This document shows positions 13,031 to 61,700 of a DNA stretch of 64,000 bases, piece after piece. The stretch is from Closterium sp. NIES-65. Taxonomy: Eukaryota; Streptophyta; Zygnematophyceae; Desmidiales; Closteriaceae. A program made the translations under genes and the position numbers. The notes under the pieces were generated by a model. The model was given only the letters and a program-made list of their open reading frames with translations. It was not told the DNA's origin and ran no database searches. How positions within the stretch are numbered: position 1 is the first letter of the stretch; each line of letters begins with the position of its first letter. The stretch spans positions 604,001 to 668,000 of the forward strand of contig CANXME010002337.1 in assembly GCA_948144175.1 (NCBI GenBank). The letters are read 5' to 3'.

Positions 13031-16633
<3,603 letters not shown>

Positions 16634-18720: not shown

Positions 18721-21700
18721 GCTATCCACCCTTGTCTTGCTGCTCGCACTGCCCCATTTGCTTCCCTCCTCCGCATCCTCACTCCCTCCCCGTTTCCTTC
18801 CCCTTTCTTCAGCGTCAGTCTCACTTGCGTTGAGACGTCTGGAAGCATATGGGGTGTCAGATACTGATGTGATGTCAAATACCCGCAGCAGCAGCGCAAG
18901 GCAGAGCTTGATTTCCATCATTGCAAATCGTGCCCCGATGCACATGCGGGGACCGGCACCGAAAGGCAAATACATGGCTTCTGACTCGGCCGTCCACAGC
19001 ACCTCCTCGTGTTCCTTTCCTTCTCCTCTCTCTTCACTCTTGATCGATTCTGCACCCTCCTCGCCCCTTCCTTCCCCCACTTGCCCTTCTGCCTCCTCTT
19101 CCCTCCCTCCCTCCTTCCACCCAACTCCCTTCTCACCTGCTGCCCGCTGACCGAAACGTTCGGGCAGAAAAGAAAGCGGCCGGGGGAAGAAATCCGGGCA
19201 GCGGTGGGCAGCGAAAATCGGGACCACAACGGGTGTATTCGCAGGGATGTGGTAACCAGCCAGAGTCGTTGCATGGACGGGCAGCCGGGCAGCTATAGGG
19301 GCAGCAGGGTACAGCCTAAGTGTTTCTTTTACAACCATATCAAGATACTTAAGCACTTCTAAGCCTTTAAATAAAGACCTATTTTTAAAAACAGGGGGTG
19401 AGTCATCGAACCTTCTTCGCCCAATCTCCCCTGGCCCCCTCTCCCCCTTCCCCTCTCCCTCCTCTTCCCCCTCCCCCTCTCCCTCCCCCTCTTCCTCCCC
19501 TTTCCCCTCCCCTTTTACCTCTCCCGCCTGCTCCCTTTCCTCGAAGTACCTGTCGATTTCAGCCTGAAGCTTCCGTGAAACGTCCGGGTGCTGAGTCAGC
19601 ATGTGGACGGCAAATGCCAGCGTGGACGATGTGGTCCCCACTCCGGCGCCCAGGAGGCCAAAGAGAATCAGAGGCAGGTCGGAATCGGCCAGTCTTGCTC
19701 CTGTGCCCTTGTCTCGGAAGCTGGAAGGCAGAGGGGAGGGGAGGGGGTCCGGGGGACAATCAGAGTAAAGCCAGGGTGGATGATGTGCTTCCACTCCCGC
19801 GCCCAGGAGGCCACATGGATCAGAGGGAAGTCGGATGCAATCCTGCCCCTGTGCCTTTCTCTTGGAAGCTGGGAGGCAGAGGGGAGGGGAGGGGGTCCGG
19901 GGGACAATGAGAGTAAAACCAGGGTGGACGATGTGGTTTCCACTCCGGCACCCAGGAGGCCAAAGAGGATCAGAGGGAAGTCAGACTCGTGCAGACCTGT
20001 GGTAATCAGTTTTGAGAATTCTCAAAAGAGGATCAGAGGGAAGTCAGACTCGTGCAGACCGGCGGAAATCACTTTTGAGAATTCTCAAAAGAGGATCAGA
20101 GGGAAGTCAGACTCGTGCAGACCGGCGGAAATCACTTTTGAGAATTCTCAAAAGAGGATCAGAGGGAAGTCAGACTCGTGCAGACCGGCGGAAATCAATT
20201 TTGAGAATTCTCAAAAGAGGATCAGAGGGAAGTCAGACTCGTGCAGACCGGCGGAAATCACTTTTGAGAATTCTCAAAAGAGGATCAGAGGGAAGTCAGA
20301 CTAGTGCAGACTGGCGGAAGGGGGGCAGATGTGCTGTGGTGCCCTTGTCTCCTTTTGAGTCGACTCAAAAGCAGATGTGCTGTGGTGCCCTTGTCTCCTT
20401 TTGAGTCGACTCAAAAGCAGATGTGCTGTGGTGCCCTTGTCTCCTTTTGAGTCGACTCAAAAGTGATGTGCTGTGGTGCCCTTGTCTCCTTTTCAGTCGA
20501 CTCAAAAGTGATGTGCTGTGGTGCCCTTGTCTCCTTTTGAGTCGACTCAAAAGTGATGTGCTGTGGTGCCCTTGTCTCCTTTTGAGTCGACTCAAAAGTG
20601 ATGTGCTGTGGTGCCCTTGTCTCCTTTTGAGTCGACTCAAAAGTGATGTGCTGTGGTGCCCTTGTCTCCTTTTGAGTCGACTCAAAAGCAGATGTGCTGT
20701 GGTGCCCTTGTCTCGGAAAATGTGAGGCAGGTTGGTAAGGTAAGGGGGGAAGGAAAAAGGGGGCGATTACCCATAAGGTCCCCACACCGGCGCCCAGGAG
20801 GCCAAAGAGGACACAAGGGAGGTTGGACTTGGGGCGAAGTGACATGCATGCTATGTCAATTTAACTTTTGAGAATTCTCAAAAGTGAAATTCACATAGGG
20901 AGGTCGGACTTGGGGCGAAGTGACATGCATGCAGTACAGAATGAAAGACGTGCTTGTGAGTGCGTGTGCCTGTGAGTGCGTGTGCCTGTGAGTGCGTGTG
21001 CCTGTGAGTGCGTGTGCCTGTGAGTGTGTGCTGTCTGTGAGAGCGGGTTTGTGCAAATATGTACACGATGTTGTTTGCGTGTGTGTATTGTTTTGTTTTT
21101 TGCTTTTTTTGTTTTGTTTTTTTTTGTTTGGTCTGTCACCCTGATGTACCTTTTGAGAAAGGTCAGTATGTCAGCAGCGCTGCTGTTGCCTTGAGACGGT
21201 TGCTGCCTCTTTGCTTCCAGCATCCGCTGGTGAGAAAGGGAGGAGTTGGAGGGGAGAGATGGGGGGGGGTTATACGGGGGAGAGATGGGTGGATGGCAGG
21301 GTCAGATGCGGGAGTGGGAGGAGAGTGTTGCCTTGCGACTGTTGTTGGCATAGCGAGAACGTGGTACCTCTGGGCACCGCACTCAACACCTCTCACTCAC
21401 CTTCCACTCCAGCATCAGCTCACGATGTCTCTCCCTCGCTGCACCCACAGTGCTCCCAGGCAGCACACCCAGCAGCGCATGCACCCAGGGGCATAGCGAG
21501 AACGTGGTACCTCTGGGCACCGCACTGAACACCTTAGTTGCTAAGTGCTGCCTCAAACCTCTCACCTTCCATTCAAGCATCAGCTCTCGGTGTCTCTTCC
21601 TCGCTGCACCCACGGTGCTCCCAGGCAGCACACCCAGCAGCGCATGCACCCAGGGGCATAGCGAGAACGTGGTACCTCTGGGCACCGCACTGAACACCTT

Positions 21701-24700: not shown

Positions 24701-26592
24701 GGCTGGCAGTGGGAGGTATGGGGCGGTCGTGGAATGTCTTGAAGCGACGGAGCAGAACCTCTTTCACTAGAGCAGGGGACGACACTGCCACCACTCGGCG
24801 AGGGCCATAGCAGTAGCTGAAGGAATGGCGGGTGTGAGTGCAGGGGGTACGAGACAGGGATGACAGGGAGGACAGGGAGGCAAGGGACTGTCATGGAATG
24901 TTTTGAAGCGACAAAGCAGAACCTCCTTCACGAGAGCAGGGCAGGACACTTCCTCCACACAGCGAGGGCCGTAGCAGTAGCTGATGGAGAGACAGGCGGG
25001 TTGAGAGTGAATGAGGCGCTGCATGGTGATGAATTGATGAGACAAAACCTCTTTCACGAGAGCAGCGGAGGACACTTCCTCCACACGGCGAGGGCCGTAG
25101 CAGTAGCTGATAGAGAGGGTGGGGAAGAGAAAAGGAGAAGCGATGAGATGGAATAGGGGCTGTGGAATGTCTTGAACTGGCAAAAAAGCAAAAAGCAAAA
25201 AGCAAAAATCAAAAAAAGCAAAAAAGGAACCTCCTTGACATGAGTCTGCTTTTGAGTCGACTCAAAAGCAAAAAAGGAACCTCCTTGACATGACGCTACC
25301 TGCCACCACATGGCGAGTACATGGTGGTAGGTACTCAAAGACCGTAGCAGTAGCTGGAAAGACTTTTGAGACGTCTCAAAAGTCGTCTACCTGCCGCCAC
25401 ATGGCGAGTACATGGTCGTAGGTACTCAAGACCGTAGCAGTAGCTGAAAGAAGGGTGGGTGGGAGACATGGCAGTTGAGAGTCGTGGAAGGGGAGGAGCG
25501 GGAGGGATTGGTTGACTTGGAAACTACAGCAGGAGCACCACACATACATGACCGCAGCACAAGACAGAGCACCTTACAGCACCGCACAGAACCTTACACT
25601 CACGAGTAGAGGTGGCCGTGTGCTGCCATCCAGTCCACGTGGCACTGATGGTGACCCTTGCTAACGATCTTGATAACATTCCCCACCACCCCCACTCCCA
25701 CTGCCTGAGTTCACTGCGGGAAGCACCGAACCGCACACCGCACAATACCACCCACAACTGCGCCGTACCACATAGCAACGCACACTCACGAGTAGAGGTG
25801 GCCATGAGCAGCCATCCAGTCCACGTGGCACTGATGGTGACCCTTGCTCACGATCTCTGGCACGTTCCCCACAACTCCTAGAATCCGAAGCCACCACGGC
25901 ACAGGGGGACCTTGCATTTCCCGTAAGCCTCTCACCCTCTCCTCCTTCTCTGCATTTCCCTTCTTTTCCTTTCCCTCGTCTCCCCTTGCCTCTACTTGTT
26001 TCCCTCTTTTTCCCTCTCCACCCTTTCTCTCCCCCTCTTCACTCATTACGCCACTCTCCCTCCTCCCTTCCATTTGTCCATCTCCCCCAGGATCTTTTTC
26101 CGAAATTCCCGCCGTTGATCGCGGCACGAGAGAGCGCAGGTGGAGAAGAAGCAGGACGAGGATCGCGAGGAGAATCACGGCGACGACGGCGAGCGCTGCG
26201 ATGACGAGCGACTGCGCCGGCGACTGCGCCGGCGACGTCGTCGTCGTCGTCGTCGTCAAGCGGATGACCAGAGAGGAGGTTTTCGCGAGCGCGACCGCGA
26301 CTGCGAACGCTGTGACGCCGACGGGAAACGCTGCGCCAGGGAGCGATACTCGAGCGGCGAGGGAATTTCGCGAACTGCTGTTATCTCTGCTGTTATTATC
26401 CATTGCGGAAGATTCTTCATTTGACTGCGAATGCGAAACATTCCTTAGAGAGGATAGAGAGTCGCGGTCAACGGATGTCGTATCAGGGCTAACTCCTCCA
26501 CCCTTAGCAGCGTCGTTTGGGCCTTTGGGAACTGCTCGTCGCACTGGGTTGGTGAGATTCCTAAAGCCGGTGGCCGATTCGGAAGCCATCAC
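18526..26592 (-). CDS. Cytochrome P450, five exons, with large low-complexity insertions
   Basis: Minus-strand exons: 26592-25790, 24816-24670, 22959-22080, 21226-21150 and 19720-18526; 3102 nt, 1033 residues, all phases agreeing. Exon 1 has a membrane anchor (LVIAALAVVAVILLAILVL) and PPVPWWLRILGVVGNVPEIV. Exons 2-3 give SYCYGPRRVVAVSSPALVKE, TTGRGLLFAR and GNHWAGLRSALTPMFH (C-helix WxxxR). Exon 5 has the I-helix GLLGAGVGTTSSTL, K-helix VVKETLRLYPAAP (ExxR), PERF, and haem loop LPFGAGPRMCIGARFAMMEI with the Cys ligand. P450s are haem monooxygenases on the ER; the substrate cannot be read. The style resembles CYP3/CYP711-like clans, tentatively. Usual length is near 500, the excess being an extended N-terminus and acidic/Gly insertions before ExxR and before the haem loop. 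The last codons are duplicated downstream, so the true C-terminus may differ. Confidence 0.85.
20010..20279. repeat. Five AATT-core palindromes, 63-bp period
   Basis: TTTTGAGAATTCTCAAAA at 20010, 20073, 20136, 20199 and 20262, separated by an almost identical 45-bp piece of the P450 exon (GAGGATCAGAGGGAAGTCAG and onward). Confidence 0.97.
20353..20687. repeat. Eight TCGA-core palindromes, 45-46 bp period
   Basis: TTTTGAGTCGACTCAAAA at 20353, 20399, 20445, 20490 (TTTTCAG in the left arm), 20535, 20580, 20625 and 20670. The 27-bp spacer (GATGTGCTGTGGTGCCCTTG, TCTCC) is a piece of the P450 exon 5 region. Confidence 0.97.
20866..20883. repeat. Palindrome, AATT core, at a duplication junction
   Basis: Perfect over 22 bp with ACT/AGT ends. 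GGACTTGGGGCGAAGTGACA plus TGCATG occurs on both sides (20825-20850 and 20907-20932). Confidence 0.95.
20955..21030. repeat. 16-bp minisatellite GTGAGTGCGTGTGCCT
   Basis: About 4.5 units, inside P450 intron 4. The unit begins with a plus-strand donor-like GTGAGT, but the gene here is on the minus strand, so this is probably incidental. Confidence 0.85.
21390..22079. repeat. P450 intron 3: four extra copies of the exon 3 end
   Basis: On the minus strand, HPWVHALLGVLPGSTVGAA, RHRELMLEWKV and a following GTGAG donor recur with spacings of about 150-180 bp at about 21405, 21556, 21735 and 21910 (donor-side ends). The exon 3 border used in the model is at 22080. Confidence 0.8.
23277..24690. repeat. 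138-bp minisatellite derived from the P450 exon 2 donor
   Basis: Units start at 23277, 23423, 23561, 23699, 23837, 23975, 24113, 24251, 24389, 24527 and 24665; spacing is exactly 138 bp from 23423 on. On the minus strand each unit reads PTASRTTGRGLLFAR followed by GTGAGTGT, the end of P450 exon 2 with its 5' splice site. A GACATGG/GGCATGG variant alternates irregularly among units. Since 138 is divisible by three, long false open frames arise on both strands. Confidence 0.95.
25250..25267. repeat. Palindrome, TCGA core, at a duplication junction
   Basis: GCTTTTGAGTCGACTCAAAAGC, perfect over 22 bp; GCAAAAAAGGAACCTCCTTG plus ACATGA lies on both sides. Confidence 0.95.
25364..25381. repeat. Palindrome, ACGT core, at a duplication junction
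   Basis: TTTTGAGACGTCTCAAAA, with arms extended to 24 bp (GACTTTTG, CAAAAGTC). The 60-bp block with CACATGGCGAGTACATGG and CCGTAGCAGTAGCTG occurs on both sides. Confidence 0.95.
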
Positions 26593-40691: not shown

Positions 40692-43600
40692 ATGCAGCCC
40701 AGCATGGACGCCTTCGAGCACTACTTCCAAGCGGCAGACGCGGACAGGGACGGCCGGATCAGTGGCGCTGAAGCCGTCGCCTTTTTTCAGGGATGCGGCC
40801 TCCCCCAGATGACCCTCGCCAAGGCACGTATCAGCTGCTGTTGAACCTGTTTGTAAGGCTTTTAAGCCGTAACCTTCGTTTATGGGTGCGGCCTCCCTCA
40901 GATGACCCTCGCAAAGGCACGTATCTTCTCCCATACCTGTTGGCCTGTGGATGCCATGCCTCGGCATGTCTTGATTTTTATCAGATTGTCAGGAGACACC
41001 TTTGGCATTATTGGAACAACCTCTTTTCATGGGCTTGCTACGATTTTCTATCAGACCTTTAAACAACCTCTCAGGTTCCTGTGATTGTTGCGACCACTCG
41101 ACATGTTCTCCTCTCTTATTGCCCACGTAGTCCTCTAAAATTGTGTGTTTTTGTTGCATTTTATGGCGTGTGCTGGATGAATCATTGGCCTGGTCGAATT
41201 TCAAACTTTCTTGTTACTCCGTCCCTTTGCAGGTCTGGCAGTATGCCTTTTGAGGCTCCTAAAAAAAAATTCTAACTTTCTTGCTTCTTCGTCCCTTCGC
41301 CCCACAGGTCTGGCAGTATGCGGACTCGCGCCAAGCGGGGTTCCTCCACCGCCCAGAGTTCTTCCACGCCCTTCGCCTCATCACCGTTGCCCAATCCGGT
41401 CGCGACATCAACCCAGACGTCGCCCGAGCCACCTTCTCAGGCCCGGCAGTGGCCCAGATCCCCGCACCTCGGATTACCGTGCCTCCGAGGCCCGGAGCTG
41501 CTGCCAGACCAGGCGGGCTGCCAGGTCCGGTCGGTTCGGGCGCTCCCGGACCTGGAGCACCGGGAGCACCACCAGTGCAGCAGGTAATTCTGAGAGAATA
41601 GAAGAGGTAAGAACGACTCGACAAAGGTCCATTTAGAGCACCTTTTGAGGCGCCTCTGAAGTAATTCCGAGAGAACAGAAGAGGTCAGAACGACTTAACA
41701 AAGGTCCGTTTAGAGCACCGGGAGCACCACCACCAGTATTGGTGAGTCCAAGAGAACTTCAGAGGTAAGTCCGACTCGAAAATCCACGCAAAGTTTGCGT
41801 GTTGGTTACTTTACTTCAGCTTCTTATCATCAGGAGTATTTTATTGTTGGAACTGCAAAATTGTCTCTGAAAAATCGACTGCCCCTTCCTTCGTCTGCTC
41901 TACCAACGGTCAGGGGGTGTATGAAAAGGGAATGCCAATCCAAGGTACAACAATGTCACAGATGATGCCTGGGATGGCTGGGATGAGCCTCATAGGAGGC
42001 ATGATGATTTGTGACTGTTACTCTCTTTCCTTCGTCTCTCCCTCTCTTTGTTTGCTGTACCACGTCCTGCAGGGCGCGTATGGAAGGGGAATGCCAGTCC
42101 AAGGCGCGCCGATGCCACAGGGGATGGCTGGTATGGCTGGGATGGGCCCTGTGGGGGGCATGATGGGGGGTATGGGAGGCATGGGAGCCATGGGGCCGGG
42201 CCCAGGCGGAATGATGGGGGGAATGGGACCTCGACCAGGCATGCAACAGCCGCAGCAACAGTATTCACAGCAGCAGCAGCAGCAGCAGTACGGGCAGCAG
42301 CAGTTTCAGCCGCAGCAGCAGCAGTACGTGCAGGGTATGCAGGGGAACATGCAGACTGGTGCGCCAGGCACCATGCAGCAATCTGGTGCGTCTGGTGCGC
42401 CGGGGACCATGCAGAGTGGCACACCCGGGGGCTTGCAACCAGGGCCTCTTGGACCCGCATACGGCCGTGGTCAGCCAGCAGGTGCTCCTATGCCAGGTCA
42501 GCCTGGCCCGATGCCAGGTCAGCCTGGCCCCATGCCAGGTCAGCCCGGCCAAATGCCAGGTCAGCCTGGGCCAAAGCCAGGTCAGCCTGCATCCGGGCCT
42601 TCTTGGCAGCCTGCTTCTGCGAAGCCTGCAGCAGAGAAGGATCCGTTTGCGGATTTTGGCGTGCTTGGAGGCAAGAAGTTTGCCGCCCAGACCCAGAGTG
42701 GTGCCAAGGGTTCTGCTGCCGCCCAAAGTGCTGCCACAGGTGCTGCTGCCGCCCAGATGCCTGCTGCACAGCAGCAATTCCAGCAGCAGCAGCAGCAGCA
42801 ATACCAGCAGCAGATGATGCAGCGACAGCAGCAAATGCAACAGCAGCAGCAGATGCAACAGCAGCAGCAGCAGATGCAACAGCAGCAGCAGATGCAACAG
42901 CAGCAGCAGATGCAACAGCAGCAGCAAATGCAACAGCAACAGCAGATGCAGCTACAGCAGCAGATGCAGCAGCAGCAGGCAGCGATGGGAGGGATGGGAG
43001 GGGTGATGGGAACAGCAGGACCTTCTGCTTTTGGTCCTTCTGCTTTCTCCGCCTCCTCTCAACCCCCTCCTTCCCAGCAATCCGCCTCCCGTCCTGCTCC
43101 ACCCACCTCCACTCTACCCAAATCCGCAGACGCAGCAGCAGCAGCAGCACTGGATGCTTTTGTGATGAAAGACGTGGCTGTAGTGCCTCCAGCTGCTGTG
43201 TCTTCCGCTGTGGTAACAGCAGGTGGGGGGCAAGCAGCAGAAGGAACAGCATTCGCGGGAGCAGGGGCAGCAGCAGGGGCAGCAGGGCAAGGGGCGGGCG
43301 CAGCAGCAGGGGGCGCGCAGGGGCAGGAAGGAGAGGGGTTTCTGATGGTCCCGGGGGATCCCCAGCCATGGCCGAGAATGGGGGTGGCGGAGGCACAGCG
43401 GTATGCGCAGGTGTTTGTGGGCATCGATGCGGATAGGGATGGCAAGATCACCGGCAAGGAGGCGAGGAAAGTGCTCATGGCTTCACAAGTGCCTATTGGT
43501 GAGTGCTTGTGCGGTGAGGATGGGGTGGTATGGGTGAGCATGGGTGTTTGTGGGCGTGGATGGGGACAGGGATGGCAAGATCACCGGCAAGGAGGCGAGG

Positions 43601-46600
43601 AAAGTGCTCATGGCTTCACAAGTGCCTATTGGTGAGTGCTTGTGCGGTGAGGATGGGTGGGTGTGGGTGAGCATGGGTGTTTGTGGGCGTGGATGGGGAC
43701 AGGGATGGGAAGATCACCGGCAAGGAGGCGAGGAAGGTGCTCATGGCTTCCCAAGTGCCTATTGGTGAGTGCCTACCTTCCTCTCCCCTTTTGCGCCTTG
43801 GGAATGGTGGGATATAAGGTATTGTTTGTGGGCGTGGATGGGGACAGGGACGGCAAGATCACCGCCTCCTACCTCATCACGCGTTGAGGCACATTTACTT
43901 ATCCTAAACCCGTTGGGACCCCATCAAGTCTTCCTCCCTCGCTCCCCCCCTCCCTCTCTCCTTCCCCCCCTCCTTCCTAAACCAAACCCACCCCTTGTTT
44001 GCCCCCCTTTTCAGATGTACTCAAGCAGGTGTGGGACCTCTCAGATGAGGACAAGGACGGCAACTTGTCATTTCACACTTATTCTGAACATGCACTTTCC
44101 GTTGTCTCGGCACTCACACACCCTTATCCCCATGCTCCTGTCCCGCAGATGTACTCAAGCAGGTGTGGGATCTCTCAGACGAGGACAAGGACGGCAACTT
44201 GACTCTTCGCGAGTTGCATTTTGAGGCGCCTCAAAATCCGCGTGTAGTGAGGTGCATTTTGAGGCGCCTCAAAATCCGCGTGTAGTGAGGTGCATTTTGA
44301 GGCGCCTCAAAATGCACCTTGTTTGCCCCCCTTTTCAGATGTACTCAAGCAGGTGTGGGACCTCTCAGACGAGGACAAGGACGGCAACTTGACTCTCCGC
44401 GAGTTCTGCACCGCCTCCTACCTCATCGAGCGCTACAAGTCAGGACGAAAGCTGCCGCCCACACTGCCGAAGGGCTTCCACGTGGACGAACCGGTGCAGG
44501 ACCAGCGCACGGCCATCGCTGCGAAACGATTGGCCGAGGCGCAGGCGGCGCTGACTCAGCACTCACAGGGGGTGAACGTGCCAACGTGGCAGCGCGATCC
44601 AGGTAAACCACTGCAGCGTTTCCATCCCCCACCTTCCCTTTTCCCTCCCCCCCCTTCCCTCCTCCCCTTTCCCATCTAAAAGCCAATAAACACACAGCAA
44701 AATCAAGGATTTGAGTTCTCTGGTAACGTTGTGCGTTTCTTGGGCTGCTATCCGTATGCTGTCATTAACTAAGGAGGTGACGTGTGCGGCAGCAAGTAGA
44801 AATTGACTTCTATCTCTTTGTGCTGTTGGCGTTGCAGGTGTCCTGGTCTCCCCAACAAAAGGAGCACCCAGAAAGGTAATCATCTATTGATACATCTCTG
44901 GATGGATTTGCTCTTAAAAGAAGTCTGACTGACTGTTTTTTCTCTTTTATGTATGTTATCTTTCTCTGGATGCATCATCTCTTTGACTGGGAATTTCTCT
45001 TCCCGATTGATTTTTTCCCTCTTTTGTGACCGCACTTAAGTTTCCTTCTTGGTGCGATCACTAGCATGGAAGAGTATGGATATGCACTGACTGAGACATT
45101 CATCATGCATCAGCACATGCGTTGTTGGAAGTTGGAACATGCACTGAGAGGGACATGCATTTGGGGACATGTGTTGGGACATGCACTTGTGTTGTGCTTT
45201 CTCATGCCACAAAATGAAGTTTCTTCGTGCTATCATGTCACCTCCTCAACCATCCCTCCTTCCCCCCCCCCCCCTTTTCTGTCCCATTTCTGTTGTCTGT
45301 GCGTTCAGGACGCGATGCACTTGCACACAGTGCTACGAATCTGCTCCCTAACCTAATGCTCCCCCACACCTCCCTACGCCTCCCTGTCGTCTGTTCTGTG
45401 TGCTCAGGACGCTGCCATGGATCAGAAGAAATAGGCTGTGTTTTTGTGCATGCACTTGCACACAGATGTGTGCGTGCATGCGCGCACTTGCACGCAACGA
45501 GTCTGGCTTCTAATGCCCCCTCCCTCCCGCTCACGCCTCCCCTGCTGTCTGTTGTCTGTGTGCTCAGGACGCTGCCATGGATCAGAAGAAAAAGGCGGTG
45601 TTTTTCCGCGACAAAATGCAGGAGATTGTAAGTCGCAATCAATCATGAGGTGACTTTTGAGTCGACTCAAAAGGCGGTGTTTTTCCGTGACAAAATGCAG
45701 GAGATTGTAAGTCGCAATCACTTTTGAGGCGCCTCAAAAGTTGTTTTTCCGTGACAAAATGCAGGAGATTGTAAGTCGCAATCAATCAAATTCTGTTGTT
45801 TTCACTGTGAGAAACGTGGCATTGTAAGGGCGTTTATCAGTGGTGTGGTGATGACACGGTCCCTCTCAATCTGTATCTCTCCTCCTCTATGCATGTGACT
45901 ATTGAGTCGACTCAGAAGTCACCTCAATTTCTGTTGTTTTCACTGTGAGAGTCGCTGTGACCTCTGCCTTGCTGACGTCTCTCAGATTGAACTTTTCCTC
46001 CTCTTTCTGTGTGTCCCATCCCACCCCATCCCATCCCATCCCATCCCATCCCATCCCATCCCATCCCATCCCATCCCCTTTCCAGGTCATGTTCAAGAGT
46101 CGCTGTGACCTCCGCCTTGCTGACGTCTCTGAACAGGCTGATGTGGAGAAAAAGGAGGTGAGCATGCTGACGTGGCGGAAACAGGGGGTGGGCTGGGCAT
46201 GCTGACGTGGCGGCAGAGTACTGGTGATCACAAAAGCAGGTTTGTCTATTTTGGGAGTTTCAAACTATGTTTCACATGATTTTCACAGCTTGAGTCTTGA
46301 ATTCAGTTCGTCTTTGACTGTTTTTTAAATATCTTAGCTTGGGGAGCACGTTGACAGGTTTCTATTGTGCAAGACAGTTCAAATCTCTGCTGGAAGTCTG
46401 TAGTGAGGCGAATTTGAGGCGATTTTGAGGCAATTTTGACGCGATTTTGAGGCAATTTTTTTAGGCGCCTCAGAAATCTGGTTCCACTTTGGGGTGCCTG
46501 CTGGGATGCTACGTGCAAATGCATGGTCTCCATTCTCCATTCTCCTCACCTCTCCCCTCTCCCCGTTTTCCCGGTGCCAGATGGAGGACTAGGTCGGAAT

Positions 46601-49600
46601 TATGACGACAAGTACAAGGCGGCTCAGCTGTCGGCTGGGAAGCTAGGTGCACTGACTTAGGCGCTTAATCTCCCCTCTCCCCGTTCCTCTCCCCGTTCCT
46701 TTCCCCGTTCCTTTCCCCGTTCCTCTCCCCGTTCCTCTCCCCTCCCTCCTATCCCCCTCTTCTCTCCACGTTCCTGGCATGACAGATGGAGGAACTGGCC
46801 CGGAAGTATGACGACAAGTACAAGGCGGCTCAGCTGTCGGCTGGGAAGCTTGCAGCAGAGGAGCGGGCACTGCAGCAGATGCAGGTAGGTGGGTAGTGTG
46901 AACAAGGTGAGATAGACTGTCGTGCGGCAAGTGCAAGTACAAGTACAAGGCGGCTCAGCTGTCGGCTGGGAAGCTTGCAGCAGAGGAGCGGGCACTGCAG
47001 CAGATGCAGGTAGGTGGGTAGTGTGAACAAGGTGAGATAGACTGTCGTGCGGCAAGTGCAAGTACAAGTACAAGGCAGTGACTTTTGAGACGTCCCAAAG
47101 GTGGGTAGTGTGAGCAAGGTGAGATAAACTGTCGTGTGGTAAGTGCAAGTACAAGTACAAGTACAAGGCGGCTCAGCTGTCAGCTGGGAAGCTTGCAGCA
47201 GAGGAGCGGGCACTGCAGCAGATGCAGGTACACTGCATCCCTCTGCATCCCTCTGCATTCCCCTGCATACCTCTACATACCTCTGCACCCCGCTGGCACC
47301 CCTCTGCATCCCTCACATTGCTGACATTGCTCTGCATCTGCTGCATTTCCACCCATCCCTCTCACAGAAGAAGGCTCAGATGGTCATAAACGCCACGTCA
47401 GTCCCTCTCCTCCCTCTGCATCTTCTTTCCTTCTGCCTCCTCTCCACCCTATCCCGCACCCATCTCCACCCTACCCTGCACCCTTCTCCACCTTCTCCAC
47501 CCTTTTCCACCCCTCTCCACCCATCCCTCTCCCAGGAGAAGGCTCACATCATCATGAACGCAACGTCAAGGCTTGACCGAGGAGGCGACCCCAACCAGCT
47601 GCTGCAGGTGTGGTGTGGCGTGGTGCGGTGGGGTGGGGTGGGGTGGGGTGGGGTGGGGTGGGGTGGGATGCGGTGGGGTGGGGTGTGGTGGGGTGTGGTG
47701 TGGTGTGGTGTGGTGTGGTGTGGTGCAAGGGGTTAATGAGTGACAAACCACTTACCTTCTGTAGTGAATGTGAGTGCTGTGCTGTGCAGTGCTAGGGGTA
47801 TTTGCACATGCCACTGCCATCATCACTTCTGTACTCACTCAAGCTATCTCGTGTGATGAGTCGATTCTTGAGTGGACTCAAAAATCGTATTTGCGCATGC
47901 CATTGCCATCATCACTTCTGTACTCACTCAAGCTATCTCGTGTGATGAGTCGATTCTTGAGTGGACTCAAAAATCGTATTTGCGCATGCCATTGCCATGA
48001 TCACTTCTGTACTCACTCAAGCTATCTCGCTCCATGACTTGCTTTTACCTCCTCCTCATCAGCATCATCATCAGGATAAGGCAGACCGCCTGGCTCTGGA
48101 GGTGGAGGAGATGCGCAAGGTGGTGTTCGCGCATGCCACTGCCGTCTTCTCTGCTGCCCATACTCCCTCATGGGTGTCTTGTGCCCCGTCCACATCCCAT
48201 CACCAGGACAAGGCGGACCGCCTGGCTCTGGAGGTGGAGGAGATGCGCAAGGCAGTGTTCGCCCATGCCCCTGCTGTCTGCCCCTCACGTTATTCCTCGT
48301 GTTATCTCACTATCCAACGTCCCTCACTCCTTGACTTGCAGGACAAGGCGGATCGCCTGGCTCTGGAGGTGGAGGAGAGGCCACTCTCGTTGCCCCTCAT
48401 GGTGTTTATATTATCCCTTGATCACTCTTTTCGACAAACAGGACAAGGCGGACCGCTTGGCTCTAGAGGTGGAGGAGATGCGCAAGGCGGTGTTCGCGCA
48501 TGCCACTGCCATCGGGCTCAAAGTGCGGCCCCTTGTGGGATCCGAAACTCCCTTTGGTAAGCATTCGAATCATGACATTGTGCGATCATGGCATCAGTCA
48601 ATCTTGTTACGTGCCTCCTACCATTGTCATTGGGCTTGGGCATTAAGTGGTCCCTCTGTTGCGGATTTCAAGCGCACTCTCTGTTTAAGTGTTGGTTTTT
48701 TCTCCATGTGTTGCTGTGGGATGGGAGTGACTTTGGAGAGTGTAGACTTTTGTGACAAGATATCTTGTAGATATGTTCAGTAGGTTTCTCGTGAATCAGT
48801 GCCGACAAGATATGCGCATGTGCTGAGGAATGATCATTTCATTCGCCAGGAGAAAGCAACAACTGGTGTGGGTTACTGTTGTGTTTTTAACTAATGCTTC
48901 GCCAAGTGGCTTCTCCGTCTTTCTCCGTTTTGTCCAGGCTGGCAGGCGAATCTTCAGGAGAAAGCAACAGACTGGGACGACGAGTGGGACGACGTGCAGT
49001 TTGAAGAGCTGGTGGTGGTGCGGGATATTGGCGACACCCCATTGGCTGAAAACGAAGACCCGTTCCCCAGGCCGAAATCCAAGGAGCAGGAGGAGAAGGG
49101 AGCGGCTGGGGCGTCAGCAGCTGCTGAAACTGGCAAGGGAGAAGGGGAGGAGGGTGGGGGAGAGGGAGAGGTGGAGGATGGGAAGGGGGGAGAGGGGATG
49201 GCAGCAGAAGAGGTTGATGGTGCTGCGAATACAGGAGGGGAAGGGCCAGGAGGTTCCAAGGAGAACGGGGAGAAGGAGAAGCAGGAGAAGGAGAAGGAGG
49301 AGGAGAAGAAGAGGAAGAAGAAGGAGAAGAGCATGGGCTCGGCTCCGTCCGGTCCAGCTGACTTCTTCTCTCCAGAAGAGGATGAGGATGCGGATTCAAA
49401 CGAGGCTATGATTGGCGTGCAGAGGCATGGGGAGGAGGACGAGGAGGAGGAAGAGGAGGAGGTGGAGGAAATTGTGATGGATTCGACGCCTGTGCTGCAG
49501 ATTACAGCAGGAGGAGAGGGAGAGGGAGGGGGAAGGGGGAGAAAGGACGGGATGATGGAAGGGGTGGTTGCGGGAGGGGCAGGAGCAGGAGCAGAGGAAA

Positions 49601-53372: not shown

Positions 53373-56300
53373 ATGACAGACGCTCGGCGGATTCCGTTAG
53401 CTCGAGGGATCCCGTCACTTGAGCGGTTTCTGTTTCTGGCTTGCGCTATCGCCGCTCTGCGCGTGAGTCTCGCTATTCCCATTTATTTGTCGACTGATGA
53501 TCATGGTCAACTCATTATCAATTTACGAGAAAAAGGCTTTAAAATGGCATCCCAAGATTGTCACTTGTCCGTTCTCACGACCACCGGTGCTTCTCTTTTA
53601 TTCTTTCTTCTTAGCGCAAGTTCTGGACATTAGTCTTTGACTAACCTTGTATCTCCGCCTGGCAATCCGTGTATCCCGCCTGACAAAGCCCACAGTAGCG
53701 TGTCTGGAATAAATGGTGTTAGCTCCTTGACTCACTGAGTATTATCTGCCGTTCCGCACACAACATGATACATCCCTGCACAAGAAATGTCCATGCATTC
53801 GCGTCCACATCCGCATCCGAATGCTCATGGCTTTTCTCTCCTCCCGGCCACTAAGCGTCACCCGGACACCCTCCTCCCCGTTCATTGTCGCATCAGGCTG
53901 GGAATGCAGCAGCCGAGCGCATTCACCACGGCGATGCCCTTGTGAGTGAGTGTATGGTGTGATGTGATGTGATGATGCGAGTGCAGCACCATCAGATGAT
54001 GCGAGTGCAGCATCATCAGATGATGTGAGTGCAGCCGTTTATGCAGCAGCCGAGCGCATTCACCACGGCGATGCCCTTGTGAGTGAGTGTATGGTGTGAT
54101 GTGATTATGTGAGTGCAGCATGATGTGATATGTGTGTGAGGCATTATGTGATGAGGAATGCAAGATGAGGGTGCAAGAATATCACCTGTAGATATGAGTA
54201 CTCTTAACCAATATCACTTGTAACAGCCACCTCATCCTACTCACGAAAACGTGGCCAATGGCCATGTTACAACAGCAGGTGGTTTTTTCCACCAAAAACA
54301 ACAATGTGCTATTTCTCCTTCAGAAATATTAAAATATATATAACCTTTTTTTACGGTCGTTTTTAAGGATACCATTCGTATTTTTGCCCCTTGATCATTT
54401 GAACAATCGGAGGATGGCCATGGAGTTGCCTCTCTGAATAGATGTTGTATCTTACCCACGTACCTTTGTTAACATTGGAAAGTTCTCATGCCATTTTTTT
54501 CTCCTCGCAGCATTTCCAAAATCCTTTTCTCCACTTCCTGTTCCCCTTTCTGCTACCCTTTCCTCCTCTTCCCTCCCGCTTCCCCCTTCCCCCCTCCCTC
54601 CCCCCTACTACCTTTCCCCCCACCTCCCCCCTTCAGTCTCGAGCCATCATTGATGGGTTTCTTGATGACCCCACACTCATCGATTTCAGTTTTCCCGACC
54701 AGATATGTGGCACATGGCACCACAACTACACTCGCATGCACCAGCAAATCCGGGCAGCCAGCAAAAATCCCTCTGGCGACCCCCCGCCCGACACGCCGCC
54801 CGTGAAATTTCTCACCTTTGACGGCCTCAGCCACTGCGACAGCCTCGGGGAGACCCTCATGGGGCTGACGTCAGCGTTCACTGTAGCTATCCTCACTAAC
54901 AGAGCTTTCGTTATAAAGCACCCGTGCATCCCCATGGCGTTTGAACCGGCGCTGATCGACTGGCAGCCCACAGAAGACGTGGGATTCGAGCCCGTCAGAA
55001 ACGAAACTTTTCCGCTCGAGCATCCTGACCAGGCGGTCACGCCACCAATAGGAGCGAGCGATATTGTGGAGATCAATCTAGAATTACGTCCCGAGGCGCA
55101 CCCGGAAAAGGTGTTTCTGCAGGTAGAAGCTGCAAGGAACCTGTGTGTGGTGTGGAATAAAGACCTGCTGGTGCATATGCTGAAGGGGGCAAATGAATCG
55201 GTGTGGGGAGGGAGACTCAAAGACATGGGTGTCAGTATCCCGTACGCTTTCGGCTGCTTTGTGCGATACCTGCTGAGGTGAGACGGCGAGAGGTGGGAAG
55301 TGAGAGGTGGGAGGTGGGAGGATGAATGGATATGTTTGAGAGTTGGTTATGTTCATGATTGGCAGATTATCAAGCCTCAGTGGCCCCACCCCACCCCCCC
55401 CCTTGCCTTTGAGTCGACTCAAAAGCAGAGGATGAATGGATATGTTTGAGAGTTGGTTATGTTCATGATTGGCAGATTATCAAGCCTCATTGGCCCTTTC
55501 TTTATCTTTTCTGAAGGCCCACTCCGTAGGTGCGTGTGACGCAGGATGCAAGATGGGGAGCACAGGCTTACCTCAAACATCCATCCCCCTGTGTCTCGCC
55601 CTCTTCTCCCCTCCTCGCCAGGCCCAAACCAGAGGTGTGGCACAGGATGCAGCCGTTTGAGAAGCAGCTGAGGGGCGACAAGGTGGTGAGCATCGGCATG
55701 CACGTGCGGCACTTCGGCCGCGGGTCCCTCCCACCCAGCACCACCATCAACTCAGGCGACTTGCGGAGGGCTATGAATGACATCGTGTGGCCTGCCATAA
55801 AATGCGCCAAGGTGGGTGTTGTTTTGAGTCGACTCAAAAGGCAACGCATTTCACGCTTGCTGCGGAGGGCTATGAATGACATCGTGTGGCCTGCTATAAA
55901 ATGCGCCAAGGTGGGTGTTTTAATCAGGATTCAGGGGAAAGGGTCGTCTGCTCAGGAAAGAGCAGCAGACGAAAAGACGCAGTTTGATCAGGAAAGAGTA
56001 GACGAAAGGACGCGGATAGCCAGCCCCTTTCCCCCCACCCTCCCCCACGGGGCAGCGTGTTGAAGGAATTTCTGTGATTCGGACGGATTGTTTCTTGAGA
56101 TGACTTTTGAGTTGACTTAAAAACCCACGGGGCAGCATGTTAAAGGGTTTTCTGTGATTCGGGCAGTTTGATTCTCTCTTGCTGCTTGTTTTGAGGCGCC
56201 TCAAAACTAGATTGCTCGTTTTGAGGCGCCTCAAAACCACCCTTCCCCACGGGGCAGCATGTTAAAGGATTTTCTGTGATTCAGGCAGTTTAATTCTCTC

Positions 56301-58054
56301 CCATTGCTCGCACAACAATCTGCTTTCAGTGTTCCCTCCTATTTTTCTCACCTCCAACCCCACCAATCTTCACACACGGAAGAATCTTGAGAACTGGTGG
56401 TAGCGTTCTCTCGTAAATCTTCCCACCTATGACAAACCCATCTCCACCCCTTCCCACACACACACATGGTAGTGTATAAGAACCCGCCATTCATCAATAT
56501 GAAGTGGCTCATTAACAGTGACTGGTGGCAACTCAAACAGTCCGCTGTTCTCCTCGTGCTTGCGCGCACGCCCTCCCCCGTCCCCCCAAACCCACAAGAT
56601 GTCAAATACTGGTGGTACCCGCCATTCCTCAATGTGAAGTGGCTCGTTACTAGCGACTCTAAAGATGTCTCAGAAGTCACCTCTGACACCCGCCCCTACC
56701 CCTCCCCACGCACGTGGCAGGATGTCGAAAACTGGTGGTACCCGCCATTCCTTAACGTGAAGTGGCTCATCATTAGCGACTCGCTGCAACTCAAACAGAA
56801 GGCGGCCATTGACGTGAACGATTCCAAGGTGATGTGACCATAACGAGTCCAAGGTGATGTGACTATAACGAGTCCAAGGTGATGTGGTTCATGACGAGCT
56901 CAATATGATGTGATTCTTACAGGTCTAAGGTATTGTGATAATAACAAGTCCAAAGTGTGTGACTATATGTCTTCTTTTTACCTTTCCTCTCCTTCCCTCT
57001 TCTCTCATCTCATTTCCTCTCCTCTCTTCTCGTCTCCTCTCCTCTCCTCTCCTCTCCTCTCCTCTCCTCTCCTCTCCTCTCCTCTCCTCTCCTCTCCTCT
57101 CTTTCTCTTATTCCCACCGTGCCTCTGCCCTCTGTCATCATTGAATCCAACCAATGGGTACTCCCTCCCCACCATCATCTCCACCACCCCCAAGCCCCCC
57201 ACCACCCAAGCCCCCCGCCACCCAAGCCCCCCTCGAGCTCTGATTTCATCCTTTTTCTGAACCATCTTCTTCCAACTTCATTTCCTCCATGCAGACCTAT
57301 CACCACATTATGTCGGTTTCCCATTCCGCTTTCTGATTCTCTCCAGGGGTTTGACAAAAGCTTCGCTTACTCCCACCCCTCTATGCAGATCGTAAACACC
57401 CCATTTAATCCTGTGGGTCCCAACCCCCCCTTACTCCTCAACAACAGTGCCATCCAAGGCTCTCAGCATCAGTTGCTAACGTTCAAGAGAACTGTAGTTT
57501 GGTAGAAAAAAACCCATCCCGTTTCCTCCCCATTCCCCTTTCACCCGTCCCACCTCCTTTAAAGATCTCATCACCCATGGGTCCCGCCCTCCCTCCCCAG
57601 CAAAAGTACCACCCGAAACATTCAATACTGAACTGATGTCCCCATCCCCCCTACTCCCATTCGCCCGCCTCACCTCCTTATGCAGATCGTCATGACCGAA
57701 TTTGACCCGTGGGTCCCGACCTCCCTCCTCAACATCAGCCAAAGTCCGCCACCCGCGCCCGCTCCCTCCTCCGACCCTTCTTCTGATCCCACCACTACCA
57801 CCACCACCACCACCACAACCCCAGACGGTTCCCCTCTCTCTGATATCCCCTCTGTGCAAACGTTCCAAGAGACAGTCACTGAGTGGCTTCTCCTCTCCTC
57901 GTGCAACTCCTTTATTGTTTCGACCTCCGCCTTTGGTCGCACGGCCGCCATGTACTCGATGCATCCTCTGAGCATGTACATGCCTCATTCCTGCGACCCT
58001 CAGACTCCCGTCCGCGTTAGCAGCTTTGGAGAAGAGTCCAAGCGGCAATTTTGA
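53373..58054 (+). CDS. Fucosyltransferase-like glycosyltransferase, paralogue A
   Basis: Exons 53373-53462, 53897-53941, 54637-55277, 55622-55811, 56721-56828 and 57686-58054; 1443 nt, 480 residues, phases consistent. A short N-terminal hydrophobic stretch (RFLFLACAIAAL) fits a type II Golgi anchor. Key stretches: DQICGTWHHNYTRMHQQI, DGLSHCDSLGETLMGLTSAF, TVAILTNRAFVIKHPCIPM, VVSIGMHVRHFGRG (an HxR motif as in fucosyltransferases of the GT23/GT37/GT65 type), and ETVTEWLLLSSCNSFIVSTS, AFGRTAAMYSM, which resembles the donor-site end of that fold. The exact family is not certain. The enzyme would transfer sugar, probably fucose, to a glycan in the secretory pathway. Gene B next door has identical exon structure. 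Confidence 0.72.
53950..54160. repeat. Exon 2 copy and GATGATGTGAGTGCAGCA repeats (gene A)
   Basis: A second copy of exon 2 (NAAAERIHHGDAL plus GTGAGT) lies at about 54043-54082. Around it are degenerate units related to the array in the matching intron of gene B. Confidence 0.8.
55278..56720. repeat. Introns of gene A with palindrome-linked duplications
   Basis: 55319-55392 and 55428-55495 are copies around a palindrome (55408-55423, TCGA). The exon 4 end (RRAMNDIVWPAIKCAK plus GTGGGT) recurs after a palindrome at 55822-55839 (TCGA). CCCACGGGGCAGC with TTTCTGTGATTC occurs three times, at about 56043, 56126 and 56246, with a decayed palindrome at 56105-56122 and two GCGC palindromes at 56189-56206 and 56219-56236. 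Copies of exon 5 (WWYPPFLNVKWL) precede the real exon at about 56470 and 56610, with a decayed palindrome at 56657-56680. Confidence 0.88.
57010..57105. repeat. TCTCC pentanucleotide repeat
   Basis: About 18 units in the last intron of gene A. Further downstream, at about 57294 and 57388, are decayed copies of the exon 6 start. Confidence 0.88.
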
Positions 58055-58764: not shown

Positions 58765-61700
58765 ATGCGAGTCGCTCGACGGATTTCGTTAGGTCGACGA
58801 ATTTCATCAGCTCAGCGTTTCCTGTTTCTTACTTATGCTATTGCCCTTATACACGTGAGTCTCGTTACTGGCGACACTTTCGGCGACGCAGTTATCATTG
58901 TCACGTAGTATTCATTAAAGAAAAGCTGTTTTAGATCACCCATGCAGTTTTTCGTCATGTTTCATGATCGCTTTTCTATTATTTACGTTTGTCCGTTCTA
59001 AAGGTCACCCATGCAGTTGTCATAGCGGAAGTTCGAACGTTAATCTGTCATTAGTTATGAGCTTCCTCTTGATTCGATTCCACACGAGGTTGTCCGAAAT
59101 AGAAGCAGCTGGATTTTTTACTCAATGTTTATGCTTTGGCGTTCCGCATCCCTCGTCTCTCCTCGCAGCCACTTAGCCTTTCCCGGCCTTTCCCTTACCT
59201 TCCCTTATTGTCACATCAGGTTGGGAATGCAGCAGACGAGCGCATTCACCACCGCGATGCCCTTGTGAGTGGATGAATGGCATGATGTGAGTGCAGCATG
59301 GTGCGATGACGTGCGTGCAGCATGATGCGATGGTGTATGTGCAGCATGGTGCGATGATGTGCATGCAGCATGATGCGATGGTGTATGTGCAGCATGGTGC
59401 GATGATGTGCATGCAGCATGATTCGATGGTGTATGTGCAGCATGGTGCGATGATGTCCGTGCAGCCTGATACGAGATGTGCGTACAGCCTGATGTGTTGT
59501 TTCGAGTGAAGCATGATGTTTCTCTGGGAGTTTTTTTGGCTAACTCCCCCCTCCATGCAAATTGCTCATGTTTCTTACGCCTCTGCTTCCCAATACACCC
59601 GCAGTGACCCAATTACTTCATCCCTCCCCAACCCCGTCCCCTTCCCCACCGCCAACTTGCTCCTCCCCTTTTCAGTCTCGGGCCATTATAGATGCTTTCC
59701 CGGACGTCCCCACTCTCATCGATTTCGGTTTCCCCGATCATTTATGTGGGACATGGCATCACAATTACACTCGCATGCACCAGCAAATCCGGGCAGCCAG
59801 CAAAAATCCATCCTCTGCCCCGCCGCCTGACACGCCGCCCGTGAAATTTCTCACCTTTGACGGCCTCAGCCACTGCGACAGCCTTGGGGAGACCCTCATG
59901 GGGCTGACGTCAGCATTCACTGTAGCTCTCCTCACTAACAGAGCCTTCGTTATAAAGCACCCGTGCATTCCCATGGCGTTTGAACCGGCGCTAATCGACT
60001 GGCAGCCGACCGAGGACGTGGGATTTGAGCCGGTCAGAAACGAAACTTTTCCATTGGACCCTCCTGACCGGGCAGTCACGCCGCCAATAGGAGCGAGCGA
60101 TATTGTGGAAGTTAATCTGGAATTACATCCCCAGGCGCACCCGGAAAAGGTGTTTCCGAAGGTGGAAGCTGCGAGGAACCTGCGTGTGGTGTGGAATAAG
60201 GATCTGCTAGTGCATATGCTGAAGGGGGCGAATGAATCGGTGTGGGGGGAGAGACTCAGGGCCATGGGCGTGCGAATTCCATACGCTTTTGGCTGCTTCG
60301 TTCGATACCTGTTGAGGTGGGTGATTGGAAGGGTGAGGTTGTATCTAAGGGCGAAAGTGGGTCGGAGTGGACGCAAATGCATGTTGATGTTGTAGTCCCA
60401 CCCTCCCTTCCTCCCTTATGTAATCCCGTTCATTTTGAGTAGAGCTTTTTATCCCTCTTCTCCCTTCTCGCTCTCCCCTCCTCGCCAGGCCCAAGCCGGA
60501 GGTGTGGCACAGGATGCAGCCGTTTGAGAAGCAGCTGAGGGGCGACAAGGTGGTGAGCATCGGCATGCACGTGCGGCACTTCGGCCGCGGGCCCCCCCCA
60601 CCCAACACCACCGTTAGCCCGGAGGAGGTGAAGCAAGTAATGGACGACGTCGTGTGGCCCGCCATTGAGTGCGCCAAGGTGGGTGCACAGAAAACAATAC
60701 CAAGGAAACTACCAATTCGTCCCATCTCTAACACTCACTCAGCCCAAACCCCCTTTCCCCCAGACGCATCTTACAGAATTTGGAAAACTGGTGGTATTCG
60801 CCAACTCTTGACGTGAAGTGGCTCGTTATTAGCGACTCGTTGCAACTTAATGTTTTATGAGACGATTTTTATTCAACTTATAAATCTTCTGTTCCCACCC
60901 CACACATGTAACAGAATCTGGAAAACTGGTGGTATCCGCCAACTCTTGACGTTAAGTGGCTCGTTATTAGCGACTCGTTGCAACTCAAACAGGAGGCTAC
61001 CAAAGTGAACGATTCTAAGGTGATGTGAAAATATTCCAGGGTGATGTGATGCAATATATCTGAGTTCAAAGGTGGTGTGATTATAGCGAGTCCAAGGGCA
61101 AGTCTTGTCTCAGCCCCCCTTCCCCCCGTGCTAGAGATCTTTCAAATTGAGTCGCATTGAAGTTACCCCTCTTGCTAAACATTTCCTGTTCTTTTTCAGC
61201 CACCCTTGGTCTCGTGATAAAAGTGTAGTTTTGAGACGTCTGAAAACTACACTTTTATCACGTGGCTACATTTCCTGTTCTTTTTCAACCACCCTTGGTC
61301 TCCTCCCTCGGCTCACTGCAGATTGTGATCACCGAATTTGAACCGTGATTCCCACCCTCCCTCCTCAGCGTCAGCACCACCAAGGCTTTCTGTTAAAAGA
61401 AACCCATTCCCCCACCTCCCCCTTACCTCCTTTCCCCACCCTGCTTCCTTTGCAGTTTGTGATCACCGAATTCGAACCGTGGGCCCCACCCTCCCTCCTC
61501 AGCGTCAGCCAGTAACACCCATGGCCCCCAATAACAAACTCCTCACCCCTTCTCTCCCCGTGTTTCCCCTCTCACTGCAGATTGTGATCACCGAATTTGA
61601 ACCGTGGGTCCCACCCTCCCTCCTCAGCATCAGCCAAAGCCCCCCTCCCCCACCCGCGCCTGCACCCCCTCCCTCCTCCGACCCTTCTTCCAATCCCACC

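Follow-up and report, generated by a model that had tools for sequence, protein, structure and literature searches.

Small palindromes that multiply within a genome have been described in several settings. In bacteria, repetitive extragenic palindromic (REP) sequences, with their tyrosine transposases, are tiny, high-copy palindromes arranged in composite arrays, and we know of no target duplication made by them. Ordinary transposons have fixed ends and a free middle, target-primed reverse transcription typically leaves target duplications of variable length, and paired-nick work in plants has reportedly produced tandem copies of the sequence between offset nicks. Here, we describe palindromes of 18 to 54 bp that recur, between two copies of the adjoining target sequence, in a stretch of 64,000 nucleotides from the streptophyte Closterium sp. 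NIES-65 (the window; positions 604,001 to 668,000 of a 2.66-Mb contig, C2039 in our working labels, in an assembly of 874 Mb and 2,400 contigs). They resemble mobile DNA of a kind not yet described, generated in the course of break repair.

The closest systems, compared here on the basis of excerpts of the cited papers, share some of these properties. The short hairpin repeats of Volvox carteri organelle DNA (14 to 79 nt, with a mean of 50 in the plastid) are likewise present in many non-coding copies and are often nested, but they have spread in organelle DNA, their nuclear copies being described as inert transfers that make up about 0.06% of the nuclear DNA examined; they carry another motif (plastid TCCCCTTTAGGGA), and the excerpts mention no long flanking duplication (PMC2670323). 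The window, in contrast, lies on a 2.66-Mb contig and codes for LOB, cytochrome P450 and PC-esterase domains, and is not organellar. LOB domains are not known outside streptophytes and point to a streptophyte alga or plant. Yeast mitochondrial GC clusters, such as GC42, are tiny, gene-free palindromic mobile sequences with direct-repeat flanks, and they merge and shuffle; unlike the Closterium palindromes, they are mitochondrial and are flanked by AG or ACT, not by a target of tens of bp (PMC4478555). Miniature inverted-repeat transposable elements (MITEs) and foldback elements, including M1 and M2 of pithoviruses, are also non-coding inverted repeats in high copy, with fixed outer ends and short target duplications (putatively TA in M1 and M2), whereas the ends of the Closterium palindromes vary around their centre, and the duplications beside them are long and of variable length (PMC10664404). 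The introners of Amoebophrya resemble them as hairpin-forming repeats with direct repeats that spread in genes; they are, however, introns, whose direct repeats of 3 to 5 nt overlap the exon/intron borders (PMC7789003), whereas the Closterium palindromes, as far as tested, do not seem to be defined by splice sites. Two events were considered in this respect, one whose left target copy begins at GT (41584) and one located, by eye, just inside the start of an intron (55822). Finally, the small tandem duplications that CST-Pol alpha primase forms from 3' overhangs are tandem copies, tens of bp long, of the sequence between offset nicks, with no specific palindrome at the join (PMC8355091); the Closterium duplications are also two tandem copies of one stretch, but their join holds a recurrent foreign sequence. 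As far as these sources go, no compared system unites a nuclear palindrome of 18-54 bp with target duplications tens of bp long and with ends that are free about a shared centre. Our searches of open-access papers listed no such element, although a subscription paper or the species' own genome paper may hold one.

At 41584-41719, as originally predicted, the 18-bp TTTTGAGGCGCCTCTGAA stands exactly between the two copies of a 59-bp segment (Table 1). It is one of 52 palindromes that match the core pattern TTTTGAGNNNNCTCAAAA, which has 14 fixed positions, in the window with at most 2 mismatches (30 with none). Genome-wide, perfect cores number 30,327, compared with 4 matches for the reversed-pattern control. 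The centre is TCGA in 13,080 of them, ACGT in 5,047 and GCGC in up to 8,369 (TTTTGAGGCGCCTC matches 8,369 times in forward and 7,808 times in reverse orientation), while only 8 centres are of the form CNNG, the unseen class that was counted genome-wide. Among the 78 events that we sampled, the centres are TCGA (n = 23), GCGC (n = 22), ACGT (n = 9) and AATT (n = 8), four families that make up 62 events, the other 16 lying outside them. The palindromes form a sequence family and are not random filler, and since their centres are discrete, free fold-back of arbitrary sequence is ruled out. The suggestion that the filler at the join is hairpin-derived is likewise not supported, because the palindromes are not built from local sequence and fall into few centre families with common outer boxes. 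Mixed-centre hybrids (TCGC 2, ACGC 1, ACGA 1) were considered as two-template joins; at 4 of the 16 off-family events they are about what single substitutions would yield, and no such joins are claimed. A long parent transposon with TTTTGAG ends was also sought, as TTTTGAG...CTCAAAA pairs separated by at most 9 kb and having an 11-mer in common between their 60-bp flanks; among the pairs listed it was not found, every one of them beginning at a palindrome.

The sampled events come from the window, from 20 stretches of 10 kb (L009-L028; 6 from contig C2039, 13 from contig C21 at 100-kb steps and 1 from contig C6) and from locus L001. The contigs of this 200-kb sample were already known to bear palindromes, so that densities within it are not genome-wide estimates. 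Events were selected through the core, and copies without a centre escape the sample, except in the half-motif count and in the count of a pattern freed of half the core, both given below. The spread was very uneven: palindromes were absent from 12 of the 20 stretches, including one that is half N. The G+C content of the four palindrome-richest stretches is 0.55-0.58 and that of most empty ones 0.58-0.64, L013 (0.54) and L018 (0.53) being empty too.

The events consist of 63 single palindromes and 15 arrays, and the duplication statistics cover the single palindromes. Allowing at most 30 bp between the core and the copy on each side, a loose score detected a flanking duplication at 50 of the 63, compared with 86 of 400 nearby control positions, in a genome that is rich in tandem repeats. 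Under a strict two-copy criterion, which excludes third copies and low complexity, the figures were 36 of 63 and 18 of 500, respectively (P = 2e-26). Both tests are preferred to an unconstrained search that they supersede (93 of 161 palindromes compared with 119 of 1,104 controls), in which array members were counted separately and two L028 sites twice (as L005). Palindromes without flanking repeats, which would have told against the original prediction had they been the majority, amounted to 13 of the 63 when scored loosely and 27 when scored strictly. The duplications range from 20 to 120 bp (median 47.5; n = 50 loosely scored cases), and are thus not short and constant as in MITEs, but variable in length, as are those of long and short interspersed nuclear elements (LINEs and SINEs). 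Approached from the opposite side, 27 of 89 two-copy duplications with a spacer of 12-110 bp hold a palindrome in the spacer, where about 2% would be expected by chance from the palindrome density. Spaced duplications devoid of a palindrome are found, for example, at 17250-17513, 28873-29206, 41911-42165 and 51150-51395, some of which apparently copy an exon plus an intron; a few palindrome-free spacers resemble, by eye, decayed palindromes.

Hereafter A1 and A2 denote the left and right target copies, A either of them, and P the palindrome. That P sits exactly at the junction is true of about half of the events: no more than 12 bases in total separate the core from the copies in 19 of the 36 strict cases, while the others have more arm or filler. 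Mutations in the palindrome rise with the divergence of A1 and A2 (rho = -0.43, P = 0.002, n = 50), as if both had arisen at once. No nick-site motif was evident across 38 events.

Beyond the core, the longest recognised form of the element measures about 54 bp and reads CACGTG-N12-TTTTGAG-NN / NN-CTCAAAA-N12-CACGTG. The CACGTG box (at most 1 mismatch) was located exactly 12 nt past CTCAAAA in 12 of 155 distinct arms, compared with 0 to 4 at each of 59 other offsets. Genome-wide, TTTGAGNNNNCTCAAAA-N12-CACGTG was matched 1,175 times (578 + 597; an element with two full arms is counted twice), and its control not once; one 23-nt arm alone has 20 exact genomic matches. Within N12, position 6 is C in 88% and position 7 is T in 95%, the other positions being more variable (59 distinct strings among the matches listed). 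The element is an inverted repeat both in its perfect palindromic cores and, in several cases, in its arms: among 18 elements that carry a box on one or both sides, the two arms are equal at 10 or more of the 12 positions in 7, compared with 3.0% of pairs of different elements (mean 5.46). Where both boxes are present at no more than 2 mismatches, 4 of 6 elements have arms equal at 10 to 12 positions (61229, L027:9461, L040 and L042, loci L039-L043 being further genomic loci that carry arm-bearing elements). The N12 arms of the element at 61214-61267 are identical, its CACGTG box being intact on the right and having 1 mismatch on the left. Complete cases are L042, with a 53-bp insert between two 19-bp target copies (borders by eye), and L040, whose target copies are 29 bp long.

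In contrast to the fixed termini of MITEs, the outer ends vary from 0 to about 30 nt past the core. Some elements are armless on both sides (41643, L014:6665, L026:5242), some have a long arm on a single side only (L026:5440), and others have both arms (61229, L040, L042); the insert between the target copies spans 18-62 bp, with a limit of 30 bp past the core per side. The centre seems to be retained, the outer arms ending at variable points, which is the reverse of what is seen in ordinary transposons. As the sample was chosen through the core, this statement rests on the half motifs outside palindromes, of which there are 29 in about 267 kb compared with about 33 expected by our arithmetic with equal base frequencies, and on the arm pattern lacking the left half of the core, which gave 1,598 matches (control, 6). 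No A-rich tail was seen by eye in the listed events, and the palindrome is symmetric, unlike directional elements such as LINEs and SINEs. GGCT or GGCC lies past the right-hand CACGTG box in five elements (L039, L040, 61229, 40137 and L021:2805) and not in L026:5440, L027:9461, L041, L042 or L043, a hint that the full element may end asymmetrically. On the reverse strand of L041 (about 1466-1590), one element lies, by eye, inside another: the 28-bp target copy is a half element running from the CACGTG box to just past the dyad, and a common CACGTG is both the start of the target and the box of the arm.

A site without the insertion is found in the window itself. The gene copies at 54567-55280 and 59618-60319 are paralogous and belong to a duplicated gene region (53333-56903 and 58725-61095) whose longest aligned piece is 86% identical. 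In the paralogue of the 55822 site (about 60619-60683), A is present once, in diverged form, and the palindrome is absent. Second assembled copies, which are probably the other haplotype, exist for several loci. Throughout about 32 kb of the window, contig C957 (33,457 aligned bases, about 1 kb being included twice) has neither gained nor lost any single insertion as a whole, and the differences consist of one array, in which 90 bp (two units) are missing near 20420, and small indels. Similarly, no whole insertion is present or absent in 6.5 kb of L026 relative to its second copy, only unit-number changes and small indels being seen: over 6,491 aligned bases the two have 8 mismatches, and at two sites they read A-P-A and A-P-A-P-A through additional units of 43 and 59 bp. 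Two further assembled copies exist for L028 (C1658 and C347). Since no single insertion as a whole differs between the window and its second assembled copy, assembly error is an unlikely source of the duplications. In the simplest sequence of events, insertion would precede the growth of arrays. In a crude test that required 11 or more of 12 bases to match, 10 of the 15 arrays had A at both outer ends; of the 15, L026:3 extends beyond its locus and L019:6189 lacks a spacer. The array at L026:3-1316, which begins at the edge of its stretch, is a near-perfect minisatellite with a 36-bp unit and 37 palindromes, and is a probable satellite born from A-P-A. A separate, C-rich tandem array with a 42-bp spacing in the same stretch (L026:2141-3512; C21:1102141-1103512) has no such palindrome.

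Overall, insertion with target duplication is well supported, in that the two-copy statistics, the paralogous empty site, the genome-wide family and the joint ageing of P and A all back the palindromic insertion with a long target duplication that was one of the two readings originally offered. The other reading, fill-in at two offset nicks, is a natural source for duplications tens of bases long and has been preceded by experimental work (PMC8355091, in excerpt), and only its hairpin-derived filler finds no support. The two readings each hold part of the answer and are not mutually exclusive.

How the ends of the insert are formed was approached through their pairing with the target. The longer arm of an element predicts how the shorter arm would continue, and the target bases at the short-arm border were compared with this prediction. 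The match averaged 1.63 nt, compared with 0.40 for shuffled flanks (27 events; 0 of 2,000 shuffles as high), a null that is too easy since the aligner also assigns matching target bases to the copy. With a two-sided null, the mean was 1.23 nt compared with 0.67-0.78 (26 events; P = 0.005-0.025 depending on base composition), L042 being left out because the aligner had placed its arm in the target copy. Of 84 positions in short arms, L042 included, 73 are complementary to the long arm.

The explanation that we tentatively favour, with somewhat less than even confidence, is that these are insertions of a minimal non-coding palindromic mobile sequence, templated onto both 3' ends of a staggered break, fill-in duplicating the overhang. 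Two offset nicks, usually about 20-90 bp apart, would lead to a staggered double-strand break; each protruding 3' end would pair by 0-3 nt somewhere in the arm of a template copy and would be extended inwards, stopping at the template midpoint. The two identical tails would then join head to head into a palindrome, and fill-in of the two complementary overhangs would yield target-palindrome-target. Many copies are reduced to the 18-bp core or close to it, and later unequal exchange or slippage between the target copies would give rise to arrays. When the same tail is carried by both 3' overhangs and joined head to head, a palindrome between overhang copies follows by geometry alone, whatever the tail, and free ends around a fixed centre are to be expected if synthesis starts variably in the arm and halts at the centre, from both sides. 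In mammalian cells, according to the excerpts, tandem duplications arise from complementary 3' overhangs via fill-in and end joining (PMC8355091). For Closterium, we infer the staggered break, its 3' polarity, priming by short pairing, a template that may be RNA, single-stranded DNA or a genomic copy, and the enzymes. A bolder version, possible though doubtful in our view, is a new class of mobile DNA in which only a palindromic end-tag moves, a dedicated or host activity tailing the 3' ends of staggered breaks and joining tail to tail. The tag would be TTTTGAGNN after up to about 18-20 nt of arm, break repair would be the replication cycle, and each copy would leave a duplication and a minisatellite seed.

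Several observations weigh against templated insertion. The 1,598 matches of the arm pattern freed of half the core, compared with 1,175 for the fuller pattern, may include some half elements, and two elements with both boxes have unmatched arms (40137, 5 of 12 positions; 44257, inside an array, 4 of 12). No palindrome is present in 62 of the 89 spaced tandem duplications, so that duplication also occurs without it, and tandem duplication seems to be a wider habit of this genome. The 13 singles without a duplication within 30 bp include 4 that are clearly duplicated under wider limits (29631, 51937, 56189 and L027:475) and 9 that are still not, or are borderline. The excess of microhomology at the borders is modest and depends on the null. 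Palindromes of two families (GCGC and ACGT) at L028:4156 and 4215 have target borders common within 1-3 nt, and the doublets at 56189/56219 and L001:1501/1530 seem to have one target border in common; such near-identical borders of neighbouring insertions are not predicted by random breaks. Lastly, no template RNA, enzyme or autonomous element was identified here. The L028 pair is embedded among three successive copies of a single target of 41-44 bp (L028:4096-4310), which represents repeated insertion at nearly the same pair of break points. In the doublets (window 56189-56236 and L001:1501-1547), the 11-12 bp between the palindromes are, by eye, apparently a truncated piece of the flanking target copy.

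Much of this evidence would also be compatible with the capture, at a staggered break, of a ready-made double-stranded or hairpin palindrome of about 54 bp, whose ends were nibbled and ligated by end joining while the overhangs were filled separately. Capture accounts for the duplication, the palindrome and the variable outer ends, with inserts of the size range given above, and fill-in of 3' overhangs followed by end joining is documented in the excerpts (PMC8355091). Nibbling, however, should often reach the core, yet half motifs outside palindromes are near chance, and capture gives no special reason for short pairing at the borders, though end joining can use microhomology too; we regard it as unlikely, without being negligible. 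A retrotransposon enzyme might instead have reverse-transcribed a small hairpin RNA in a target-primed reaction, both nicked ends priming on the same RNA as in twin priming. This would suit the variable length of the duplications, each full arm corresponding to a single template of 27 nt whose 5' end is fixed at the centre, and CACGTGGCT does recur at some right-hand ends (61229, L039, L040). We consider it quite improbable, given that no A-rich tail (by eye), polarity, longer parent copy or enzyme was found and that an Rfam search of the window returned no matches at the gathering score.

Two further explanations reverse the order of events or dispense with insertion. If the palindrome came first and acted as a mutagen, cruciform breakage and faulty repair could later have copied the neighbouring flank into A-P-A, and the units are indeed unstable, as the 90 bp fewer near 20420 and the extra units of L026 attest. 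The divergence of A nevertheless tracks the decay of the palindrome, whose arrival would go unexplained, and the one empty site has a single A, although this is not decisive; this order of events seems to us very unlikely. Ordinary minisatellite evolution, with a repeat unit that happens to hold a palindrome, would be in keeping with the 15 arrays among 78 events and with a genome rich in tandem repeats. It can practically be dismissed, as the same palindrome lies between unrelated A sequences at tens of loci and one core is common to 30,327 perfect copies, and the strict two-copy test contradicts it as well.

Turning to the individual sites, the original prediction had named 16 in the window with the same arrangement, and 14 of these, including 41584, are clear. 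Ten are singles whose core lies no more than 30 bp from either copy (837, 3431, 14766, 20866, 25250, 25364, 45655, 55408, 55822 and 61213), two are arrays of two palindromes (15075 and 51485), and at 56189, which forms a doublet with 56219, the duplication is detected only when the search permits 60 bp. The case of 40138 is weak (79% identity across 67 bp, with gaps of 27 and 17 bp), and at 45899 neither the 30-bp nor the wider-limit search found a flanking duplication. Additional sites include 9772, 20010, 20353, 47083, 47866 and 56105. Individual arrangements are listed in Table 1. The window also contains a large coding-like tandem array with a 138-bp period (23276-24731), open in several frames.

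Table 1. Palindromes of the window and the target copies that flank them (A1, left copy; A2, right copy; families are named after the centre of the core).
Positions	Arrangement	Core	Family	Identity of A1 and A2
800..887	A1 (29 bp) / arm / core / AC / A2	839-856	AATT	100%
3372..3509	A1 (56 bp) / TGAC / core / GTCT / A2	3432-3449	TCGA	96%
14714..14853	A1 (50 bp) / GCC / core / right arm of 20 nt / A2	14767-14784	TCGA	92%
15075..15157	array of 2 palindromes, 65-bp unit		ACGT	
20010..20280	array of 5 palindromes, 63-bp unit		AATT	
20353..20688	array of 8 palindromes, 45-46-bp unit; 90 bp (2 units) fewer in second assembled copy		TCGA	
20812..20932	A1 (40 bp) / arm of 14 nt / core / arm of 8 nt / A2; arms complementary at 7/8	20866-20883	AATT	95%
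25218..25451	two adjacent insertions; A of 26 bp and of 65-67 bp, respectively	25250-25267; 25364-25381	TCGA; ACGT	100%; 94%
41584..41642	left copy A1 of 59-bp target duplication			
41643..41660	core palindrome TTTTGAGGCGCCTCTGAA, 2 mismatches, 0 extra bases on either side	41643-41660	GCGC	
41661..41719	right copy A2			90%
45594..45784	two insertions of different families with overlapping targets; A of 43 bp for the second	45655-45672; 45722-45739	TCGA; GCGC	100% (second)
47014..47161	A1 (61 bp) / arm / core (2 mismatches) / A2; not in the original prediction	47083-47100	ACGT	93%
55318..55496	A1 (69 bp) / 20 nt / core (1 mismatch) / GCA / A2	55407-55424	TCGA	99%
55762..55919	A1 (59 bp; exon end and intron start by eye) / core / 21 nt / A2	55822-55839	TCGA	98%
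56044..56310	three palindromes among A copies of 52-65 bp: one degraded, and a doublet	56105-56122; 56189-56206 and 56219-56236	TCGA type; GCGC	
61179..61302	A1 (35 bp) / long-armed palindrome 61214-61267 / A2	61229-61246	ACGT	97%

If templated insertion at staggered breaks is correct, the Closterium palindromes would rank with the smallest mobile sequences that have been proposed in nuclear DNA. They would also invert the usual rule, the middle being conserved and the ends free. The genome would then hold tens of thousands of natural records of staggered-break repair, in which the length of the duplication, the pairing of the ends and the filler are directly measurable. It would also show the birth of minisatellites and of extra exon/intron copies, as in the passage between A-P-A and A-P-A-P-A at L026.

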